From: a virus | Direction: 5' to 3' (one strand) | Length of the DNA stretch: 21,988 nt | IMG/VR virus record: IMGVR_UViG_3300031227_000487 | Location: 1 to 21,988 of that record | In this document: piece after piece, positions 12,698 to 21,988 of the stretch | How positions within the stretch are numbered: the first letter of the stretch is position 1 | Layout: every line of letters starts with the position of its first letter | Made by a program: the position numbers and the translations under genes | Notes under the pieces: model-generated | What the model was told of the DNA's origin: nothing | The model's database searches: none | The model's input: the letters and a program-made list of their open reading frames with translations, nothing else

Positions 12698-15424
12698 ATG
12701 ATACGCAAGACAGCTATTGTTATAAGTGACTTTTCAGGTGGCGAGGATACAAGGACTCCAATACTCTCGATGCCTCTAAATAAAAGCCCGAATATGCGGA
12801 ACTTTCATTGCGCAGGGGTAGGAAACCGCCTTATGAAACGAGGTGGGTTCGACAAAGTAAATTCTTCAACAGTAGAATCAGATGGACTTGATGTTTGTTA
12901 TCCCCCTGGTTATCAGACCACCGATTATGCTTTAAGGGATGCTGCCGCAAGGACTCAAATATCGCAAGGGTTTAAATGTAAGACTTCTTCTACTGTAACA
13001 AAGGTCAAATTATGGCTTAAGAAAGTAGGAACTCCCGCAGGAACAGATACCATAACTCTTGAAATCCAGTCAGATGCTTCAGGAGTCCCGTCAGGGACGG
13101 AAGTAACCAATGGCGTAGCAACTGCCATTGACATTTCAGATACCGCGACATTAGTAACTACTGAGTATTCTTGGGTAACTTTTACCTTTTCGACTAATCC
13201 CACTTTAGTGGCAGGAACACAGTATCATTTAGTATTGACAGGTGCTTTTGATATTGACGGGACTAATTATGTTTATTGGGGCGTAGATAATTACGATGTA
13301 ATTTATCCCGATGGAAGCATGAGCGTTTATGATGCCACGACTTGGACTGTGGAAACCTCATACAATGCCTGTTTTGAGGTTTATATCACAAATGGTGCAA
13401 AAGGAAACGATGGAGTGGCTCTATGGGATTTTTCGTCTAAAAATATGCTCTTAGGAGTTTTTGGGACTTCAATTTATAAGATGGATAAAAGCTCATCTGG
13501 AAATCCCGATGGAGTCTGGGACGCTCTCAGTGGCGGGAGTGGCTGGGATACATATACTAAAATCGTCAGCTCTTTTAATGGATCAGATGCCGCGACTGCT
13601 TTTACAGACCCAATAGCAGGTGCTTGGACTTTTGTAAGCGGGGCAGAATTAGATACTGCTCAAAAGAAATGGACAGCAAGTTTATTATTAAATGGGACTA
13701 CTGATTATGTTACTCAACCTGACAATAATAACTATAATTTAGGTGCGGGTGATTGGACAATGAGAGGGTGGTTCAGATTTGCTAACGTTAGTAAAGACCA
13801 AGCAATATGTGGGCAATTTGTAGACACCAGTAATGCTTGGAGGATACAAGTTACCAATACAGGCGCTTTTTTAAACTTTTATGCTGTTTCAGCAGGAACG
13901 GTTATAGCAAATTTTGGAACTGCCTGGACACCTTTAGCTGATACTTGGTATTTTATAGAAGTTTCAAGAGGTGGGAATACTCCTTATATGTTTATTGATG
14001 GCGTTACTAAAACAGTTACACAAACTGTAACTATTTCTGGAAAAACTATCCCTGATATTGCAGCAGTTTTTACATTAGGCAAGTCATTCGGTACATTTTT
14101 TTTAGATGGTTGGGTAGATGATTTTAGATTAGATAAGGGAATTTGCAGGAATACAGCAAGTTACACATCACCTGCTGCTGCTTTTAGTGCTGCTTCCGCG
14201 CCATTAACTTCTTCCCGTTTCTGGACAATGGCGGATTGGCAGTCAGGAAGGGCTTTAATAAATACCGATATAGGACTTTATACTTATTTGGGAACAGGTA
14301 GTATTTCACTGGTTTCCGGCGCTCCTGTAGGTAAATTCGTAGTAATATGGAAAAACTATGTCTTTATGGCAGGAATAAGAGGTTCTTCGAATACTGTCAG
14401 GTATTCAGATCTATCAGATTACACTACTTGGACGGCTACAAATACGCTTAATTTTGACACCTCTGATGGGGATGTAATTACAGGCATTAGAATACTTAAA
14501 GGTAAGCTTTATATATTTAAGCGGTATTCTATATTTAGAGTTACTTATCTTGGCTCCAGTCCTACATTCCAAGTTGACCAAATATCAGGCATAGGTTCTC
14601 CCTGTCATTACACGATCAAAGAGGTAGACATAGGCGGAGAATTGGGAAATGTTTTAATCTATCTTACTACTGATAAGAAGCTTGCTATTTTTGACGGATA
14701 TAATGTTCAGATAATAAGTGATGTTCTTACTGAAGAAACAAATGATTTATTTGCCTCTGCGGATGACCAGCCTTTAAGTTTTAATGATATGAATTTTAGA
14801 TACACAGACCTTTTTCATGCCTCTGTTAAAAATGACACACAAGAATACATCTTATATAGTGTATTAGGAACAGATACTTCCGTAAACTATGCCTTTGTCT
14901 TTGATTATAAAACAGGTGGGATATTCCCTTATGATGGGCAGGTTTTTGCATCGAGTTGTTATGCGTTATCAACAAGTAAGGTCAAGAAACTTTACTGTTC
15001 AGGGTACACAGGTTATACATGGCTTCAGGAATCAGGAAACTCCGATGATGGATCTGATATAAATGCCTATTGGGTATCAGGAAAGATTAAATCTTCAGGG
15101 GTCGCTCTTTTAAACAAAAACCTTTTACTTGGGATAAATGCAAAATATGCTGTATCTGCTTCCATTATTAGTGTAACTTTACAATATAGATTTAATTGGG
15201 GAGTTTCGTGGATTACACCGACATCATCAACATTTGATTCTGCCCATAATGACGAGCTTAATTTTGGGAAAACAGCTGTATTTGATATAGGAAGCATAAA
15301 CAATATGTTACAGATAAAAATAAAAGATAGTTCTTCTAATCCAGCTCCTACGATATATGGATTTGAACTATACAGGGAAGAAAAACCGTTAGGCGTGTCT
15401 ACTGAAGATAAGGCTACAACATGA
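12698..15424 (+). CDS. Tail hub / tail tube protein with two inserted lectin-like domains
   Basis: A 908-residue protein. Its first 55 residues (DFSGGEDTRTPILSMPLNKS, then NRLMKRGGFDKV) and residues about 505-908 (GKFVVIWKNYVFMAGIRGSS, FDTSDGDVITGIRILKGKLY, then IFKRYSIFRVTYLG) are those of the beta-propeller hub proteins of short-tailed phages (P22 gp10 or T7 gp12 type). Two segments interrupt it. Residues about 80-232 form a jelly-roll like exported choice-of-anchor domains (QISQGFKCKTSSTVTKVKLW, SGVPSGTE, LVAGTQYHLVL). Residues about 286-502 are a LamG/concanavalin-type domain (WTASLLLNGTTDYVTQPD, WTMRGWFRFANVS, WYFIEVSRGGNTPYMFIDG, LDGWVDDFRLDKGICRN). Both are probably surface carbohydrate binders. 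Its stop overlaps the next start as ATGA. Confidence 0.8.
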   Translation: MIRKTAIVISDFSGGEDTRTPILSMPLNKSPNMRNFHCAGVGNRLMKRGGFDKVNSSTVESDGLDVCYPPGYQTTDYALRDAAARTQISQGFKCKTSSTVTKVKLWLKKVGTPAGTDTITLEIQSDASGVPSGTEVTNGVATAIDISDTATLVTTEYSWVTFTFSTNPTLVAGTQYHLVLTGAFDIDGTNYVYWGVDNYDVIYPDGSMSVYDATTWTVETSYNACFEVYITNGAKGNDGVALWDFSSKNMLLGVFGTSIYKMDKSSSGNPDGVWDALSGGSGWDTYTKIVSSFNGSDAATAFTDPIAGAWTFVSGAELDTAQKKWTASLLLNGTTDYVTQPDNNNYNLGAGDWTMRGWFRFANVSKDQAICGQFVDTSNAWRIQVTNTGAFLNFYAVSAGTVIANFGTAWTPLADTWYFIEVSRGGNTPYMFIDGVTKTVTQTVTISGKTIPDIAAVFTLGKSFGTFFLDGWVDDFRLDKGICRNTASYTSPAAAFSAASAPLTSSRFWTMADWQSGRALINTDIGLYTYLGTGSISLVSGAPVGKFVVIWKNYVFMAGIRGSSNTVRYSDLSDYTTWTATNTLNFDTSDGDVITGIRILKGKLYIFKRYSIFRVTYLGSSPTFQVDQISGIGSPCHYTIKEVDIGGELGNVLIYLTTDKKLAIFDGYNVQIISDVLTEETNDLFASADDQPLSFNDMNFRYTDLFHASVKNDTQEYILYSVLGTDTSVNYAFVFDYKTGGIFPYDGQVFASSCYALSTSKVKKLYCSGYTGYTWLQESGNSDDGSDINAYWVSGKIKSSGVALLNKNLLLGINAKYAVSASIISVTLQYRFNWGVSWITPTSSTFDSAHNDELNFGKTAVFDIGSINNMLQIKIKDSSSNPAPTIYGFELYREEKPLGVSTEDKATT

Positions 15425-16023
15425 AAATAGCAAATTTAGAACTCAGTCCACGACTAAGGAAAGATTTAAGTTTAATAGAATTCATAAATAATGTGGCGTC
15501 TATTTTAAATAGTGGGCGTTATCAGATGAGGACATATACAGCTGTTCCTACTCATACAGGGGAATCAGGAGAATTTGGAATCTTTATATCAGGTACAGTA
15601 TTAAGACTCTATGTCTGGGACGATACAAATTCCCTTTGGTATTTTAATGAGTGGAACGCCGTAGGATTGGGCCAGGCAACGATAGTAAAAAGTGTTGCTT
15701 TAACTGCTCAAGACGGTGATATAACAACTACTACCTTATATACCCCTGCGGCAGCAGGTGTGTATCGTATTTCAACTTACGCCCTTACTACAACCGCAGG
15801 AGCAGGCGGGACGTTAGACGTAACAATCGGGTGGACAGATTCAGAACAGGCTCAATCAAGCGTAGTAGTAAATGATTTAGATTTAACAGTGGATAAGTCC
15901 GCCTCACAGAATACTTTATTTGTCCGAGCGACTGCGGCTGCAATTACTTATGCAACAGCGATAACAGGGAAGTCGGGGACGCCTGCGTATTCGCTTTTTA
16001 TTATCGTGGAGAGGCTTTCGTGA
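15421..16023 (+). CDS. Tail fibre-like beta-rich protein
   Basis: A 200-residue protein. The first 30 residues are helical (LSPRLRKDLSLIEFINNVAS), followed by YTAVPTHTGESGEFGIFISG and RLYVWDDTNSLWYFNEWN, a pattern seen in phage tail-tip and fibre proteins. The C-terminal half is a beta-sandwich-like domain of the type AAAGVYRISTYALTTTAGAG plus TLDVTIGWTDSEQAQ (111-145) and ends in a hydrophobic strand YSLFIIVERLS; this module is widespread in tail-associated phage proteins. ATGA overlap with the hub gene and a GTG overlap with the next gene imply co-translation. The exact position in the virion is unknown; a receptor-facing fibre or a decoration role are the likeliest. Confidence 0.65.
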   Translation: MKIANLELSPRLRKDLSLIEFINNVASILNSGRYQMRTYTAVPTHTGESGEFGIFISGTVLRLYVWDDTNSLWYFNEWNAVGLGQATIVKSVALTAQDGDITTTTLYTPAAAGVYRISTYALTTTAGAGGTLDVTIGWTDSEQAQSSVVVNDLDLTVDKSASQNTLFVRATAAAITYATAITGKSGTPAYSLFIIVERLS

Positions 16024-16364
16024 ATAAACTTTATTATGAGAAAATGCTGGATAGGAATAGACTTATACCTTTCTTTAAAGGTAAACGATTGGTCTGCACA
16101 TTAAGTTTTTATATTTGTAACAAGGGCGAAGAAGATAAATATTTTCGTCAGGATATGTGGAGCGTAGAAGATGATAATGAAAATGGAACCATTTGTATCG
16201 TCGACCATTTAATAACTGATAAGCACCCTGACAACCCAAAACTATCCTATGAGATTTGGCATAGGTTTAAATCATATATAAAATCTAACTTCCCCTCCGT
16301 TGAACGGATTAGGTGGAATAGATTTAAGAATAATAAAACTTACACAAAAAGGGGGAAGATATGA
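16020..16364 (+). CDS. Small hypothetical protein, possibly GNAT-like
   Basis: A 114-residue protein starting at GTG 16020, overlapping the preceding stop by four bases. The sequence shows strand, loop, strand: RLVCTLSFYICNKGEEDKY, then GTICIVDHLITDKHPDNPKL, and a helix KLSYEIWHRFKSYIKSNFP followed by VERIRWNRFKNNKTY. This strand-then-helix order with an R-x-W-R ending resembles small N-acetyltransferase-like proteins found among tail genes of uncultured phages, but the acetyl-CoA binding loop is not evident, so the resemblance is weak. It overlaps the next gene's start (ATGA). Called hypothetical. Confidence 0.6.
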   Translation: MNKLYYEKMLDRNRLIPFFKGKRLVCTLSFYICNKGEEDKYFRQDMWSVEDDNENGTICIVDHLITDKHPDNPKLSYEIWHRFKSYIKSNFPSVERIRWNRFKNNKTYTKRGKI

Positions 16365-17965
16365 AGAAACAAATCTACACGATACAAGTTTTAAATGACA
16401 AGGATTTTGAAGATCTACATAAACAATTTTCAGAGGTAGATAAAGAAACTCTAAAGACAGCGTTGGGTTTTGCCAATAAAGAAACAGGTGAAGCGTATGT
16501 CAGAAAAACCACAGTCAAAGAATTAGACGCTACAACGATGCAACACGAACTTCAAGAGCTAATATCTAAAAACTCCGAACATGAAGACGAGAATAATATC
16601 CGTTGGAAAAATGCAAGGAGTGTATTAAAAAATATTGTTGCTCCTGCTGCTTTATCTTTAATCCCTGGCATTGGGCCTGTATTAGCTGGTGCTTATAGCG
16701 GTGCCAGAACTTACAAAAAAACAGGTAGCTTAGGCAAAGCTGCTCTTTCAGGTGGATTATCTTTCGCTGGCGGTAAATTAGGACAATCTGGTGCAGGATA
16801 TAAGGGTGCGGTAGAGGCTTCCAAAGCCGCTGGTGGCGGTATTTTAGGTCAGACATTAAGCGGTGGACAAGGTATGCTTCAAGGTGTGGTGGGTGCTTTG
16901 CCTGGATTTGGTAAAGGTGGAATGATGGCAGGCGCAACAAAAGCACTTACGCCAGGGGCGATGAAAGTAGGAGCATTAGGAGCAACAAACGCTATTGCGC
17001 CAGTAGCAGGAGGTTTAGCTGAAAAACTTACCTCCGCAAAGGCTGTTAGAACTATGGGAGCAGGAGGAATAAATGCACCTGTTTCAGGAGCAGCTGCTGG
17101 AATAGGTATTGGTTCAGCATTGGGTAGCCTTAAAAATATAGCACCATCTACACCTGGAGCAACTCCAGGCGCTGCACCGATAACCCCAGCAGCGGGAATT
17201 CCAGGAACCCCAGCAGCGGCAGGCGGAGCAGGAGAAGTCGCAAAAGCAGTTCCTAAGACTTTAATAGAAAAAGCAAAGGGTTTAATAACTCCTCAAAACA
17301 TCTTAGGCGCTGGTTCGTTAATAGGTTCAATGACTCCGTCTGCGCCTGAATTTCAAATGCCTTCAACAGTAGAGGACATAAGAAAGAAACTGTTAGAGCA
17401 GACACAGGTTGACCCAGCTACAGGAAAAATGAAACCTGGCGGATTAACTGAAATCGGACAACAGGCTCAATTAGAATTAGGGAACATATTGAAATCCACT
17501 CCACAGGAACTCTACCCAACAGCTAACGACGCGTATTATGATGCGGCTTTAAGAAGAACTAGAGAGAGTTATCAAGTCGCTCAAGATAATATGGACAAAG
17601 CGTATAATTTAGCTGGAACTTATGGGTCAGGCGAACACATGGCACAGAAAGCTAAGTTACAGGAAGAACTTGCGAGGACTGAAAGTGGGTTACAGGCTGA
17701 AACAGAACAGAGAAGATTTGAATTAGCGCGAACTGCACAATACCAAGCTATCCAAGATTCTTTAGGCGTAGATAGAAACGTCATGGATGATCTTGTTGGT
17801 TTGAGTGGATTAGATGTTCAGACTGCGGCTATGATTTATGGCGCACAAGCAGCCGATGTATCAGCTATCAGAGAGGCACTTGGAACAGTCGGGGCAGAGT
17901 TACTTATCAGGGGAACGACTGGAGCGGGAACTCAACCGGAAATAAACGTAAATTTGGGAGGATAA
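16361..17965 (+). CDS. Internal virion (ejection) protein with Gly/Ala-rich core
   Basis: A 534-residue protein. Residues 1-85 form a distinct polar domain with the pattern QHELQELISKNSEHEDENNI-R (61-81), containing two His-Glu pairs. From 90 to 260 it is Gly/Ala-rich with short hydrophobic repeats (AALSLIPGIGPVLAGAYSGA, SGAAAGIGIGSALGSL), a membrane-active composition. Residues 262-290 are a Pro/Ala linker. Residues about 335-470 are helical and coiled-coil-like, including LARTESGLQAETEQRRFELA. This architecture fits internal proteins ejected with DNA to form a conduit through the cell envelope. The ATG sits in an ATGA overlap with the preceding gene. No peptidoglycan-cleaving domain is visible. 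Confidence 0.7.
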   Translation: MKKQIYTIQVLNDKDFEDLHKQFSEVDKETLKTALGFANKETGEAYVRKTTVKELDATTMQHELQELISKNSEHEDENNIRWKNARSVLKNIVAPAALSLIPGIGPVLAGAYSGARTYKKTGSLGKAALSGGLSFAGGKLGQSGAGYKGAVEASKAAGGGILGQTLSGGQGMLQGVVGALPGFGKGGMMAGATKALTPGAMKVGALGATNAIAPVAGGLAEKLTSAKAVRTMGAGGINAPVSGAAAGIGIGSALGSLKNIAPSTPGATPGAAPITPAAGIPGTPAAAGGAGEVAKAVPKTLIEKAKGLITPQNILGAGSLIGSMTPSAPEFQMPSTVEDIRKKLLEQTQVDPATGKMKPGGLTEIGQQAQLELGNILKSTPQELYPTANDAYYDAALRRTRESYQVAQDNMDKAYNLAGTYGSGEHMAQKAKLQEELARTESGLQAETEQRRFELARTAQYQAIQDSLGVDRNVMDDLVGLSGLDVQTAAMIYGAQAADVSAIREALGTVGAELLIRGTTGAGTQPEINVNLGG

Positions 17966-17971
17966 GATACC

Positions 17972-18000
17972 TTGACAAACTCCAATAAGTATGATATACT
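17972..18000 (+). promoter_or_regulatory. Consensus sigma-70 promoter (extended -10) for the HNH gene
   Basis: TTGACA at 17972-17977 is a perfect -35, and TATACT at 17995-18000 follows after 17 bases, with TG at 17992-17993 giving the extended -10. It begins six bases after the previous gene's stop codon and drives a ~115-base leader before the ATG at 18122. A TTG inside the -35 box opens the same frame but lacks any ribosome binding site and should not be used as start. Confidence 0.85.
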
Positions 18001-18007
18001 TTTAGGT

Positions 18008-18116
18008 GATGGAAGAAGAACGGATTTTTTATTGCCTAAAACAAGGACGCAAAGTAGGTTTAGAAAACTTAACCGTTTTCTTCCATCAACCGAAATGCGT
18101 CCGTTTTTATTGGAGG
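18008..18116 (+). promoter_or_regulatory. Structured leader of the HNH gene: long hairpin, RBS-blocking alternative, possible pseudoknot
   Basis: Bases 18008-18023 pair with 18073-18087 (15 pairs, one bulged G). The 3' arm includes CTTCCA (18080-18085), which can instead pair with the ribosome binding site TGGAGG (18111-18116). In addition GGACGCA (18045-18051), inside the loop, can pair with TGCGTCC (18096-18102) beyond the stem, giving an H-type pseudoknot, or a terminator-like stem followed by five T (18104-18108). The pairings are read directly; any switching between them is inference. Confidence 0.6.
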
Positions 18117-18121
18117 TAAGC

Positions 18122-18715
18122 ATGAGAGATAAAAAAGGTAGATTTCTTAAAGGTTGTGTTGCTTGGAACAAAAATAAAATAGAAAAATTTTGCGTTCAAT
18201 GCAATAAAAGATTTGAAGTTTCTTTCTCAAAAAATAGGCTTAGATTTTGTAGTAAAAAATGTTCAGGTATAAACTTTAAGGGACATATCGTATCAAAAGA
18301 AACAAGGCAAAAATTAGCAGAAATAAATAAGAAAGAAAAACACCCACAATGGAAGGGTGGAATAACTGAAGACAAAAATCATATTAAACTAATAGGTCAA
18401 AGATGGAAACATAACAATAGAGAAAAGTGTGAGAGATATAAAAATAAAAGAATGCAATTATATTATAATGCTGGAAAATTATCCATAAAAACTATTCAAC
18501 TTGTTTATGAGGATAACATAAAGAAATATGGAACGCTTACTTGTTATCTATGTTTACAACCAATTCAATTCAAACAAGATTGTTTAGAACATAAAACACC
18601 ATTGTCAAGAGGCGGAACCAATGAATATAATAATTTGGAAATAGCTCACAGAAGATGTAATTGTAAAAAAAACAATAAGACTGAAAAAGAATACAGGGAG
18701 GCTTCTAATGGCTGA
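18122..18715 (+). CDS. Free-standing HNH homing endonuclease
   Basis: A 197-residue protein starting at ATG 18122 with ribosome binding site TTGGAGG; a longer frame from 17972 covers the promoter and leader and is rejected as start. It has an N-terminal zinc-finger-like domain (C24-x2-C27, C43-x3-C47), then a DNA-contact segment SKETRQKLAEINKKEKHPQW (58-77) with K-G-G, typical of the NUMOD3 type, then the HNH nuclease: CYLC (141-144), CLEHKTPLSRGGTNEYNN (154-171), IAHRRCNC (174-181), where H157, N170/171 and H176 are the likely active-site residues and the four Cys hold zinc. It cuts DNA at the empty site so its gene spreads by recombination. It is visibly more AT-rich than its neighbours, and its last eight bases overlap the next gene. 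Confidence 0.9.
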   Translation: MRDKKGRFLKGCVAWNKNKIEKFCVQCNKRFEVSFSKNRLRFCSKKCSGINFKGHIVSKETRQKLAEINKKEKHPQWKGGITEDKNHIKLIGQRWKHNNREKCERYKNKRMQLYYNAGKLSIKTIQLVYEDNIKKYGTLTCYLCLQPIQFKQDCLEHKTPLSRGGTNEYNNLEIAHRRCNCKKNNKTEKEYREASNG

Positions 18716-19247
18716 TTGGGGAAATGTAAGACAAGGATTAACTCAAGGTTTTCAGGTTGGGGCAAGCACGGGAGGCCGTTTAAAAGGTCTTGGCTCTGCC
18801 ATTGCAAAGGTGGCTGCTGGGTTAAAATCCAAACGTGAAACTGGGGAAGCTATTGGGACATTAGGACAGACAGAAAGGATTAAGCAACAGATAGGAGCTG
18901 AATATGCAGGGCCTTCTAAGTATGGGCCAGAAGCGTTAGCATTTGAAACGGCCAAGTCAGGAATACTAAAACCACCACAGGCGATTGTTGACGCTGAGGG
19001 AAAACCAATAGGAGAAAGACCTGCTGGGTCGGTGTTTAAGCCTACAGATAAAGACGTTAGACCTGAAGGATATAAAGAAAGCTTGGCTGATGCCGTTGGT
19101 GATATTGAAGGTGGAAAAGACCCAATGAAGGTTTATAGGGCTATGTCAAAAATTTATCCAATACATAGCTCTGAATTAAAAAGGATACTACTTCCTTCAA
19201 CTAAATTAGGTGAAGTAGATATATCTGAAAGTTTATGGGGAAAATAA
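18708..19247 (+). CDS. Putative internal virion protein (small)
   Basis: A 179-residue protein. It starts MADWGNVRQGLTQGFQVGAS with a Gly-rich stretch TGGRLKGLGSAIAKVAAGLK, the same style as the Gly/Ala-rich proteins around it. Residues 55-130 are loop-rich with Pro/Lys (GPSKYGPEALAFETAKSG, GSVFKPTDKDVRPEGYKES), and a helical C terminus follows (DPMKVYRAMSKIYPIHSSEL). The ATG lies 8 bases before the HNH stop and its ribosome binding site (AGGGAGG) is inside the HNH coding sequence. Before the HNH gene arrived this gene presumably followed the ejection protein at 16361-17965. The function is inferred from position and composition only; no family is recognised. Confidence 0.65.
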   Translation: MADWGNVRQGLTQGFQVGASTGGRLKGLGSAIAKVAAGLKSKRETGEAIGTLGQTERIKQQIGAEYAGPSKYGPEALAFETAKSGILKPPQAIVDAEGKPIGERPAGSVFKPTDKDVRPEGYKESLADAVGDIEGGKDPMKVYRAMSKIYPIHSSELKRILLPSTKLGEVDISESLWGK

Positions 19248-21988
19248 ATGCCTTCTCTTTATAAACAATTAACTTTGGAAGAAACCCCAAAGGTTTCTCC
19301 ATATAAACAAGAAGTCCAAAAAGAGGGGGCTTCTCAATACAGGCAAATGAGTTCAAAAATACCAGAAGCTGACGTTGGCGAAATTAAAGAATTTGAACCG
19401 CGCAAAGCTTTAATTGCTGGCCTAAAACGCAAAGGGGCTATTGCTGCAAAACATCTTACACCTCCTATGTTAAGGAAATTACTTCCCAAACAAATACAAG
19501 AAGTCAAGCCATTTACTGGTGCAGAAAAAGTACAACTTCCTTTAACTGAACTCACAAGACAAATTGGGGAATTTCAAGTAGGTGGAACAGTTACTAAGGG
19601 ACTTTCTAAACTTCCCCTTATAGCAAAAACAGGTCAAGCAATTTCTAAAATCCCTAAAGTTGGTGGTCTTATAGCCAAAACCATAGTTCCTGAATTTACA
19701 AAAGGTGCTGTATTCGGTGGATTAGAAGCAAAAAAACCCAAAGAGATACCCAAAGAAGCGTTAAAAATGGGGACTATATTTGCTGGTATTCCATTGGCTA
19801 TGAAAGGCGTGGGATTTGCAGGCAGAGATATAATGAAGACTGTAAGAAATCTTGATGAAATAACAGGAGGGGGAGTCAAGAAAACCGCTGAATCCATAGG
19901 ATTATCAATACCAAAAGTAAAAGCATATGATTTACTTAAACAACGCCATTCTGATTTAGCATTAGGGGAATTTGAAAGTGGCAAGTTTATTAACAATTTA
20001 CGGAAAACTATCCCTACAAAGTTCAGAGAAATTATACCATTTCTTAGGGAAAAAACTGGTATTCCTAAAAATCTTAATAGACCTGATTTGGAGGCTTTAT
20101 ATCCAGAGGCGCAGAAAAAACTTGCTCCAATAGTGAAAGAAGTATCTAACTATTTGGATGACGCCCATAAATTCTTAATGGACAGCTATGGCGATGATGT
20201 GGGATTTGTAGAAAATTACATACCTCACATTTGGGATATACCAAAGAATAAAGAAAAAGAAGTGGTTAATTGGTTTGTAACCCGTAACCCTCATATGAAA
20301 CAAAGGCTTATTCCTACATTAAAGGAAGGGATAGAGAAGTTTGGATTAAAACCTAAGACTTTAGATATAGCGGATATTATACAGACATATGACCAATTTA
20401 AAATAAAGGCAGTGGCCAATGTTAAGTTTTTAGACGGATTAAAAGCATTGGAAGGTAATGCAGGAGTTAAGTTAATGCAGAGAATAGACAAAGCTCCTGC
20501 TGAGTGGATTACAATAGACCATCCTGCACTTCGTAGAGCTATGGGAAAAATGGTGGGGACAGAAAAAAAGAAACAGCTTTTATTAAACAAAGTTGCCGTG
20601 AAGGTTCACCCCGAAATAGCGGAAGTAATGAAAACTGCTTTAGGGCAACCCTTTAAATGGCCCGCAGGGAGATTGGCGACCACTATAAATGCTGTAGCTA
20701 AAAAGATAAATCTATCCCTATCTTTGTTTCATCATACTGCTCTGACTGAGTCGGCTACAGCAACAGGAATAGGAGGGCGCGCAGGAAAACTTTGGAATCC
20801 TGTTCGGATAGTCAAGGCTTTTAAATCAGGTAATTATGGCATATTAGAAAACGAGCCTTTAAGTAAGGATGCTTTACAGCATGGTCTTCAGATAGGGGCA
20901 ATTACAGATGTTCAGAGAAATGTAATACAAAAATCTTTACAGACTGCTGAGGATACTCTCCGCAGGCCTCGTGTTATTGGCAAGGTATTAGGGCCAGCAA
21001 TAAAAGGAATAAGAAAAGCAAATGAATTTTGGGATAAAGGATTGTGGGATTATTACCATACTTCCTTAAAGTTATATGCCTATGAAGATTTAGTAAAGGC
21101 TCAAATACAGAAAAATCCCAAGATTCCCATGAATAAAGTTAAGGAAGAAGTAGCTCAATTTGTAAATGATACTTTCGGTGGTCAGGCATGGGATTTACTT
21201 GTTAAGTCTCCCCAATGGAGACAGTCTGCTCATTGGGCGTTATTAGCCCCTGATTGGACATTATCTACAATAAGGCAAGCTCTATCACCCATAGGAGTAG
21301 GAGCTGTTCATGGAGCTACAAGAGGCATTAGAACCGAGATGGGTCAGAAATTTTGGGGCAAGGGGATGTTATATTTTTATGGGGGAATGAATTTATTAAA
21401 TAAATCTCTTACAGAAAGCTATACTGGTAAGGGTCGTTATATGTGGGAAAATGCCCCCGGACATAAGACACACCTTTATATAGGGCAAAATCCTGATGGA
21501 ACAGAGAAGTATTTAAGATGGGGCAAGCAGTTCAGAGAATTACCAGAGTTTTTTATAAATCCTCCCAAGAAAGCATTTGGTAAAGTCGCTCCTTTAGTTC
21601 GTATGGCAACATCGCAGACTCTTCCTCATCCTGAATGGCAGAAGGAATTTGCGGATAAGCCTTTTTGGGATAAAGAAGCTTTGAAAGGAAGAGTCAAAGA
21701 AGTAGGCAAGGGTTTTATACCTTATTCTGTATCAGGTCAAATGAGGACAGGTTTTAACCCTCTCCAATTCGCTATGCCTATATCTAAAGGTATGACTCCT
21801 TATAAAGCGAGGGAGCTATTCAGGGATGCTATTGATCGTAAGGATAAAAACAGATTAAAAGAGGTATGGGCTTCTGCGTTAAATAATAATTTAGACGCAA
21901 AATCACTGTTTAGAAATGCGCGTAGTTCTGTTAAATCAGACATAACCTTTGAATTTAAAAAAGAAGCTAAAGAGATAATTAAAAGATT
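19248..21988 (+). CDS. Large internal virion / polyvalent-type protein (partial, runs off right edge)
   Basis: ATG at 19248, directly after the preceding stop and with GGGG seven bases upstream, opens a frame without stop for 913 codons to the window end, so the true C terminus is beyond. The N-terminal 45 residues are Lys/Gln-rich and loose. Residues about 120-200 are Gly-rich and hydrophobic (TKGLSKLPLIAKTGQAISKI, FTKGAVFGGLEAKKPK). At 322-329 is ENYIPHIW, a signature seen in large polyvalent-type or internal virion proteins of phages, followed by helices. After about 460 come aromatic, membrane-protein-like segments such as FHHTALTESATATG and the later QWRQSAHWALLAPDW. It is probably ejected into the host or packed beneath the portal. 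No peptidase or lysozyme motif is visible in the part seen. Confidence 0.75.
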   Translation, partial: MPSLYKQLTLEETPKVSPYKQEVQKEGASQYRQMSSKIPEADVGEIKEFEPRKALIAGLKRKGAIAAKHLTPPMLRKLLPKQIQEVKPFTGAEKVQLPLTELTRQIGEFQVGGTVTKGLSKLPLIAKTGQAISKIPKVGGLIAKTIVPEFTKGAVFGGLEAKKPKEIPKEALKMGTIFAGIPLAMKGVGFAGRDIMKTVRNLDEITGGGVKKTAESIGLSIPKVKAYDLLKQRHSDLALGEFESGKFINNLRKTIPTKFREIIPFLREKTGIPKNLNRPDLEALYPEAQKKLAPIVKEVSNYLDDAHKFLMDSYGDDVGFVENYIPHIWDIPKNKEKEVVNWFVTRNPHMKQRLIPTLKEGIEKFGLKPKTLDIADIIQTYDQFKIKAVANVKFLDGLKALEGNAGVKLMQRIDKAPAEWITIDHPALRRAMGKMVGTEKKKQLLLNKVAVKVHPEIAEVMKTALGQPFKWPAGRLATTINAVAKKINLSLSLFHHTALTESATATGIGGRAGKLWNPVRIVKAFKSGNYGILENEPLSKDALQHGLQIGAITDVQRNVIQKSLQTAEDTLRRPRVIGKVLGPAIKGIRKANEFWDKGLWDYYHTSLKLYAYEDLVKAQIQKNPKIPMNKVKEEVAQFVNDTFGGQAWDLLVKSPQWRQSAHWALLAPDWTLSTIRQALSPIGVGAVHGATRGIRTEMGQKFWGKGMLYFYGGMNLLNKSLTESYTGKGRYMWENAPGHKTHLYIGQNPDGTEKYLRWGKQFRELPEFFINPPKKAFGKVAPLVRMATSQTLPHPEWQKEFADKPFWDKEALKGRVKEVGKGFIPYSVSGQMRTGFNPLQFAMPISKGMTPYKARELFRDAIDRKDKNRLKEVWASALNNNLDAKSLFRNARSSVKSDITFEFKKEAKEIIKR

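Follow-up and report, generated by a model that had tools for sequence, protein, structure and literature searches.

A candidate switchable RNA leader upstream of HNH endonuclease and replication-initiation genes in environmental phages

Does the leader of a phage HNH endonuclease gene act as an RNA switch and, if so, through which of its pairings? The question is raised by a 21988-base virus contig from IMG/VR (hereafter the window, i.e. the whole stretch of DNA analysed), which encodes portal, major head and terminase-like genes. We consider it fairly probable, from sequence comparison and fold models, that this leader acts in cis as a switchable 5' RNA module, in which a promoter, a structured RNA and a ribosome binding site are kept as a unit before HNH homing-type genes and a few replication-initiation genes.

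The HNH gene and its promoter

The HNH gene (18122..18715; all features described here are on the + strand) encodes a protein of 197 a.a. that matches PF01844 and PF14279, both above cut-off. In phage relatives L021 and L022 (46–47% identity in the upstream gene), the corresponding junction contains neither the leader nor the HNH gene; a PF01844 gene that lies between other genes and is missing from relatives at this junction has the placement of a free-standing HNH homing endonuclease. The HNH relatives that were found first are mostly located close behind the upstream gene, without the window-type leader; the exceptions are those in L078 and L095, where the layout of the leader is as in the window and its sequence is different. 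In L077, the region before an HNH relative (about 1920–2050) looks tRNA-Leu-like by eye, with no ARAGORN call.

A preliminary description of this locus had overlooked the promoter, which decides which RNA gets made. It is a sigma70-type site (TTGACA-17-TATACT, with a TG before the −10 box) at 17972..18000, the best-scoring site in 15000–21988 (11/12), and both of its boxes are of the sigma70 type, not of the T4 late or middle type. Since the promoter ends at 18000, the RNA is expected to start at ∼18007, which is the first base of helix P1 (described below). Promoters of the related leaders are similar: 36 out of 39 match at 10–12 of 12 positions or come close to that, and P1 starts at a median distance of 6 nt past the −10 box. 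The module is bounded by the −35 box and the start codon: sequence information is high inside, and drops just upstream of the −35 box and past the start codon. The HNH frame itself stays open across the entire leader of the window (17972–18122) and reaches back as far as a TTG within the −35 box, probably by chance.

A family of leaders and the genes behind them

We gathered 39 distinct copies of the leader module in about 25 environmental phage contigs, using pattern scans and two covariance models (R1 and R2). Because TTGAC, TTTTTAT, CTTAAC and GTARG were included in the search patterns, the conservation of these bases is partly due to selection; P2, P3, the 5' strand of P4, the GAA bases (see below) and the downstream gene are outside the patterns. 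Two weak R2 matches (L302:2868–2986 and L269:502–619), which carry the motifs TTTTTATGTCTAAA and AAAAGG.GA and no promoter, were left out of the family count; they are possibly a different RNA or chance matches.

Searches of Rfam 15 with the window and the loci of nine members gave no match at the gathering score, and permissive Rfam searches gave sub-threshold, chance-like matches or none (for L203, none up to E = 1). Distant blastn searches of named or cultured phages and plasmids returned short chance-like matches only; no module copy was found in 50 other viral records that match the search patterns by chance, and no match in the host genomes of one small phylum (five genomes, an uninformative sample). 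An exact search with the 16-base P1 arm produced 32 matches, close to the estimated chance number, the sole real one being in a near-identical contig. We found no description of the leader RNA in open-access papers. As judged by comparing its sequences, the leader represents a family of structured RNAs so far uncatalogued, in which two mutually exclusive folds are conserved.

For the 31 distinct members that make up the main alignment, the downstream genes were typed by profile search: 27 members lead HNH or endonuclease genes, one (L224) leads an HNH remnant, one (L186) leads no gene, and two lead replication genes (a DnaD-like helicase loader at L115:1282, and a replication initiation protein, Phg_2220_C, at L077:3230). 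A third replication gene, encoding a replisome organizer, is found behind a later copy (L271:740); by inspection, HNH-type genes follow the seven remaining later copies, one truncated where its contig stops. Several copies can be found in one record: there are three each in G007, G010 and G013, and four in G009 (the record of L115; 30198 bases), three before HNH genes and one before the DnaD-like helicase loader. The modules without a downstream gene (L186:2769–2891) or with an internally shortened HNH gene (L224:3599–3717) are apparent stages of cassette decay.

These gene neighborhoods bear on the idea that the stretch bounded by the promoter and the U-run forms a small RNA of its own, acting in trans or bound by the nuclease and working with the HNH protein. 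Omega RNA works together with IscB, and the module resembles HEARO / IscB omega RNA in that a structured RNA immediately precedes an HNH gene; its own promoter, its terminator-like 3' end and HNH genes as its usual neighbor would fit such a role. Unlike HEARO / IscB omega RNA, however, the module has no match to the omega-RNA (HEARO) or any other Rfam family, the HNH proteins behind it are short and of various subfamilies, and three members lead replication genes instead. Its distance to the start codon is also nearly fixed, with the 3' end of P2 located 15–21 nt upstream (mode 19). We regard a trans-acting or nuclease-bound RNA as quite improbable, and prefer the cis-acting module, whose sharing links homing cassettes to replication-initiation genes.

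Two exclusive folds of the leader

The preliminary description had claimed a long hairpin of 15 pairs. It is present as P1, with 16 pairs and one bulge (18007..18023 with 18073..18088; G18018 is bulged), as seen in the window fold, the MAFFT alignment and the covariation across 31 leaders. Its loop (loop 1) contains a conserved AUUUUUUAU at 18024..18032 (alignment columns 34–38), which is in the search patterns and therefore owes part of its conservation to ascertainment. A leader peptide opened by the ATG of loop 1 was considered and rejected, as this ATG is not conserved. The pairing of GGACGCA with TGCGTCC, also claimed, is P2 (18045..18051 with 18096..18102): it consists of seven perfect pairs and shows compensatory changes across the 31 distinct related leaders. 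Covariation further supports P3, in which GGU (18057..18059) pairs with the ACC of 18089..18094. The latter segment includes the GAA bases, which are near-invariant (31, 30 and 31 of 31) and lie between P2 and P3 opposite the GUA of AGUA (18053..18056; GUA in 26–27 of 31), an arrangement that we take to resemble a bulged-G (loop E) module. Directly 3' of P2 is a U-rich run (18104..18110; family mean 6.2 T of 8, vs 2.2 of 8 at the equivalent position of HNH relatives that lack the leader), which includes the five T (18104–18108) reported earlier after a terminator-like stem, and the Shine–Dalgarno (SD) GGAGG can be read at 18112..18116. The leader of the window folds better than 200 out of 200 shuffles (z = −3.9).

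Standard pairs were found in 92.9% of the cells of the P1+P2+P3 pseudoknot, vs 67.5% for shuffled and 43–48% for slid pairings, and double changes at 23 out of 23 pairs (counts that treat the 31 sequences as independent, uncorrected for relatedness). P2 and P3 were absent from the model used for the alignment, and the result for all three helices is unchanged in a plain MAFFT alignment. A fourth helix, P4, was revealed by RNAalifold on the MAFFT alignment: an RRAAAC strand is paired to the upper part of the P1 3' arm, enclosing a UUAACC loop. In the window, the 5' strand of P4 is GAAAAC (18063..18068), the conserved loop is at 18069..18074 (CTTAAC is present in two search patterns), and the 3' strand is GUUUUC (18075..18080). 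P4 is paired in 87.7% of cells (vs 34–55% slid), with 43 double-changed cells (vs 14.5 shuffled). G–U wobbles are frequent on the sense strand, which fits an RNA.

GUUUUC is common to P1 and P4, and both helices covary there. Because P1 and P4 require this same 3' strand, two exclusive folds are conserved: a nested P2–P3–P4 hairpin followed by the U-run, or P1 plus the P2/P3 pseudoknot. The earlier proposal of competing, mutually exclusive folds before the HNH gene, including a pseudoknot and a terminator-like stem, was right in essence. It had placed the contest at CTTCCA (18080–18085), with the SD as the second partner; the conserved contested segment is instead GTTTTC (18075–18080), for which the P1 5' arm competes with GAAAAC. 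CTTCCA can indeed pair with TGGAGG (18111–18116, with one G–U), but this pairing is not conserved: in the family, the P1 3' arm pairs with the SD of its own leader no better than with that of another (p = 0.13). Of the three pairings for which compensatory changes had been suggested as a check, hairpin P1 and P2 show them, and the third, between hairpin arm and SD, does not.

The promoter geometry, the four covarying helices, the exclusivity of P1 and P4, the near-fixed spacing to the start codon and the gene association can all be read from the sequences; strong covariation and a clean gene association are combined in this one leader family.

Access to the ribosome binding site and known leaders

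We propose that the first base of P1 is also the first base of RNA made from the module's own promoter, and that P4 could form first during transcription, completing the nested P2–P3–P4 hairpin that ends at the U-run (terminator-like, off); the P1 5' arm could displace P4, giving P1 and the P2/P3 pseudoknot with an open SD (on). We infer this assignment of the on state, as well as a protein, an RNA or a small molecule tipping the balance. The two states of the window RNA are 3.4 kcal/mol apart (−26.3 and −22.9), and for most own-promoter RNAs the fold model strongly favors P1, so the switch would need kinetics or a factor. The module is like riboswitch and protein-responsive attenuator leaders in its mutually exclusive helices, its terminator-like end and its conserved core with a loop E-like module; unlike them, it has no candidate ligand or protein and is absent from Rfam 15, and its genes are those of nucleases and replication, not of a metabolic pathway. 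We tentatively rank termination at the U-run, in RNA folded with P4, as the most likely lever: the P1/P4 exclusivity covaries, and termination is here predicted from sequence, with U-runs that are imperfect in several members (e.g. interrupted in TAATTTTT and TTATATTT, which is poor for termination). Control of translation through the pseudoknot is the second likeliest lever, and a somewhat less probable one.

Pseudoknot energies were approximated by reserving strands. With the P2/P3 strands reserved, own-promoter RNA is predicted to open its SD more cheaply: the cost is lowered from 3.1 to 2.2 kcal/mol (family means, p = 0.0006), and from 3.1 to 0.8 kcal/mol in the window. This more open SD would also suit a module for constitutive expression that does no switching, in which the 5'-terminal stem protects the mRNA while the pseudoknot and the U-rich stretch keep the ribosome binding site open; P1 does sit at the 5' end of the predicted RNA, and the spacing of ∼19 nt corresponds to the 5' edge of the ribosome footprint, next to the U-rich stretch. 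But the second, mutually exclusive helix P4 covaries too, and the conserved GAA and GUA bases exceed what protection needs, so we consider constitutive expression unlikely and the switchable module the better reading.

The switchable module may also be silent on RNA made from upstream genes. Such read-through RNA carries extra 5' sequence, and in the window phage this includes an anti-SD, CTCCAATAA, in the promoter spacer (17980..17988), which is predicted to pair with TTATTGGAG (18107–18115) in read-through RNA only (P(pair) 0.84–0.99 in long transcripts); the predicted RNA start of the own promoter (18007) is downstream of this arm. If the anti-SD silences read-through RNA, the nuclease would be made mainly from its own promoter. 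The predicted opening cost of the SD rises with read-through from 2.2 to 3.3 kcal/mol in the family (p = 0.003) and from 0.8 to 6.0 kcal/mol in the window. Across 30 members, own pairs of spacer and SD beat mismatched ones (p = 0.007), an effect driven by roughly a third of the members. The anti-SD is stronger in leaders with a co-directional upstream gene (p = 0.038, with crude gene calls); it is strong in only about a third of the members, and some with a co-directional upstream gene have none. We also considered whether the upstream sequence has been selected to shift read-through RNA from P1 to P4, and rejected this, as the real upstream sequence is no better than shuffled.

Leaders that hide the ribosome binding site are known for the homing endonucleases T4 I-TevI, segB and Aeh1 mobE (PMC2988022), and T4 homing-endonuclease leaders are silent on read-through RNA (PMC2988022, PMC3014915). 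The preliminary description had invoked T4-like hiding by the hairpin arm CTTCCA, and its interpretation of the leader is partly supported: hiding is predicted, through the segment inside the promoter and on read-through RNA, not through the hairpin arm, whose pairing is not conserved. The module is thus like I-TevI, segB and Aeh1 mobE in that read-through RNA can hide the SD and own-promoter RNA is predicted to be without the hiding arm; unlike them, it has a sigma70-like promoter (not T4 late), beyond the RNA start it contains a pseudoknot that covaries as well as a competing helix, and one and the same module is found before replication genes and HNH genes of several families. Plain T4-type silencing, in which the anti-SD upstream of the RNA start is the relevant feature and the rest is incidental, would account for the anti-SD in the promoter spacer by a mechanism already reported for those three genes (PMC2988022), but does not account for the four covarying helices that lie beyond the RNA start, nor for the many members without an anti-SD; we find it very improbable as the whole explanation.

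A second precedent is the replication initiator gene repZ of ColIb-P9, whose translation depends on an upstream activator pseudoknot (reviewed in PMC8383071). The module is like it in topology and place (P1 crosses P2/P3 directly upstream of the ribosome binding site, and P2 ends ∼19 nt before the AUG); unlike repZ, it has an antisense promoter-like site in only one out of 31 members, has extra helices, and belongs to phages rather than a plasmid, and activation is proposed here by analogy. With a non-T4 promoter and no antisense RNA indicated, the module is a strict member of neither class; by analogy, it would work like the T4 leaders and the ColIb-P9 repZ pseudoknot at once.

It is possible, though doubtful, that the switchable module represents a new class of sensor RNA, coupling the expression of the homing nuclease to the replication programme of the phage: the same signal-responsive leader on replication-initiation genes and HNH cassettes would time cutting to when recombination can follow. 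The silencing and timing of mobile nucleases in phages outside the T4 group becomes testable by short reporter constructs. At the other end of the window cassette, the HNH gene overlaps the ATG of the next gene (18708) by 8 nt, and its 3' end (18695–18715) supplies the Shine–Dalgarno of that gene, AGGGAGG.
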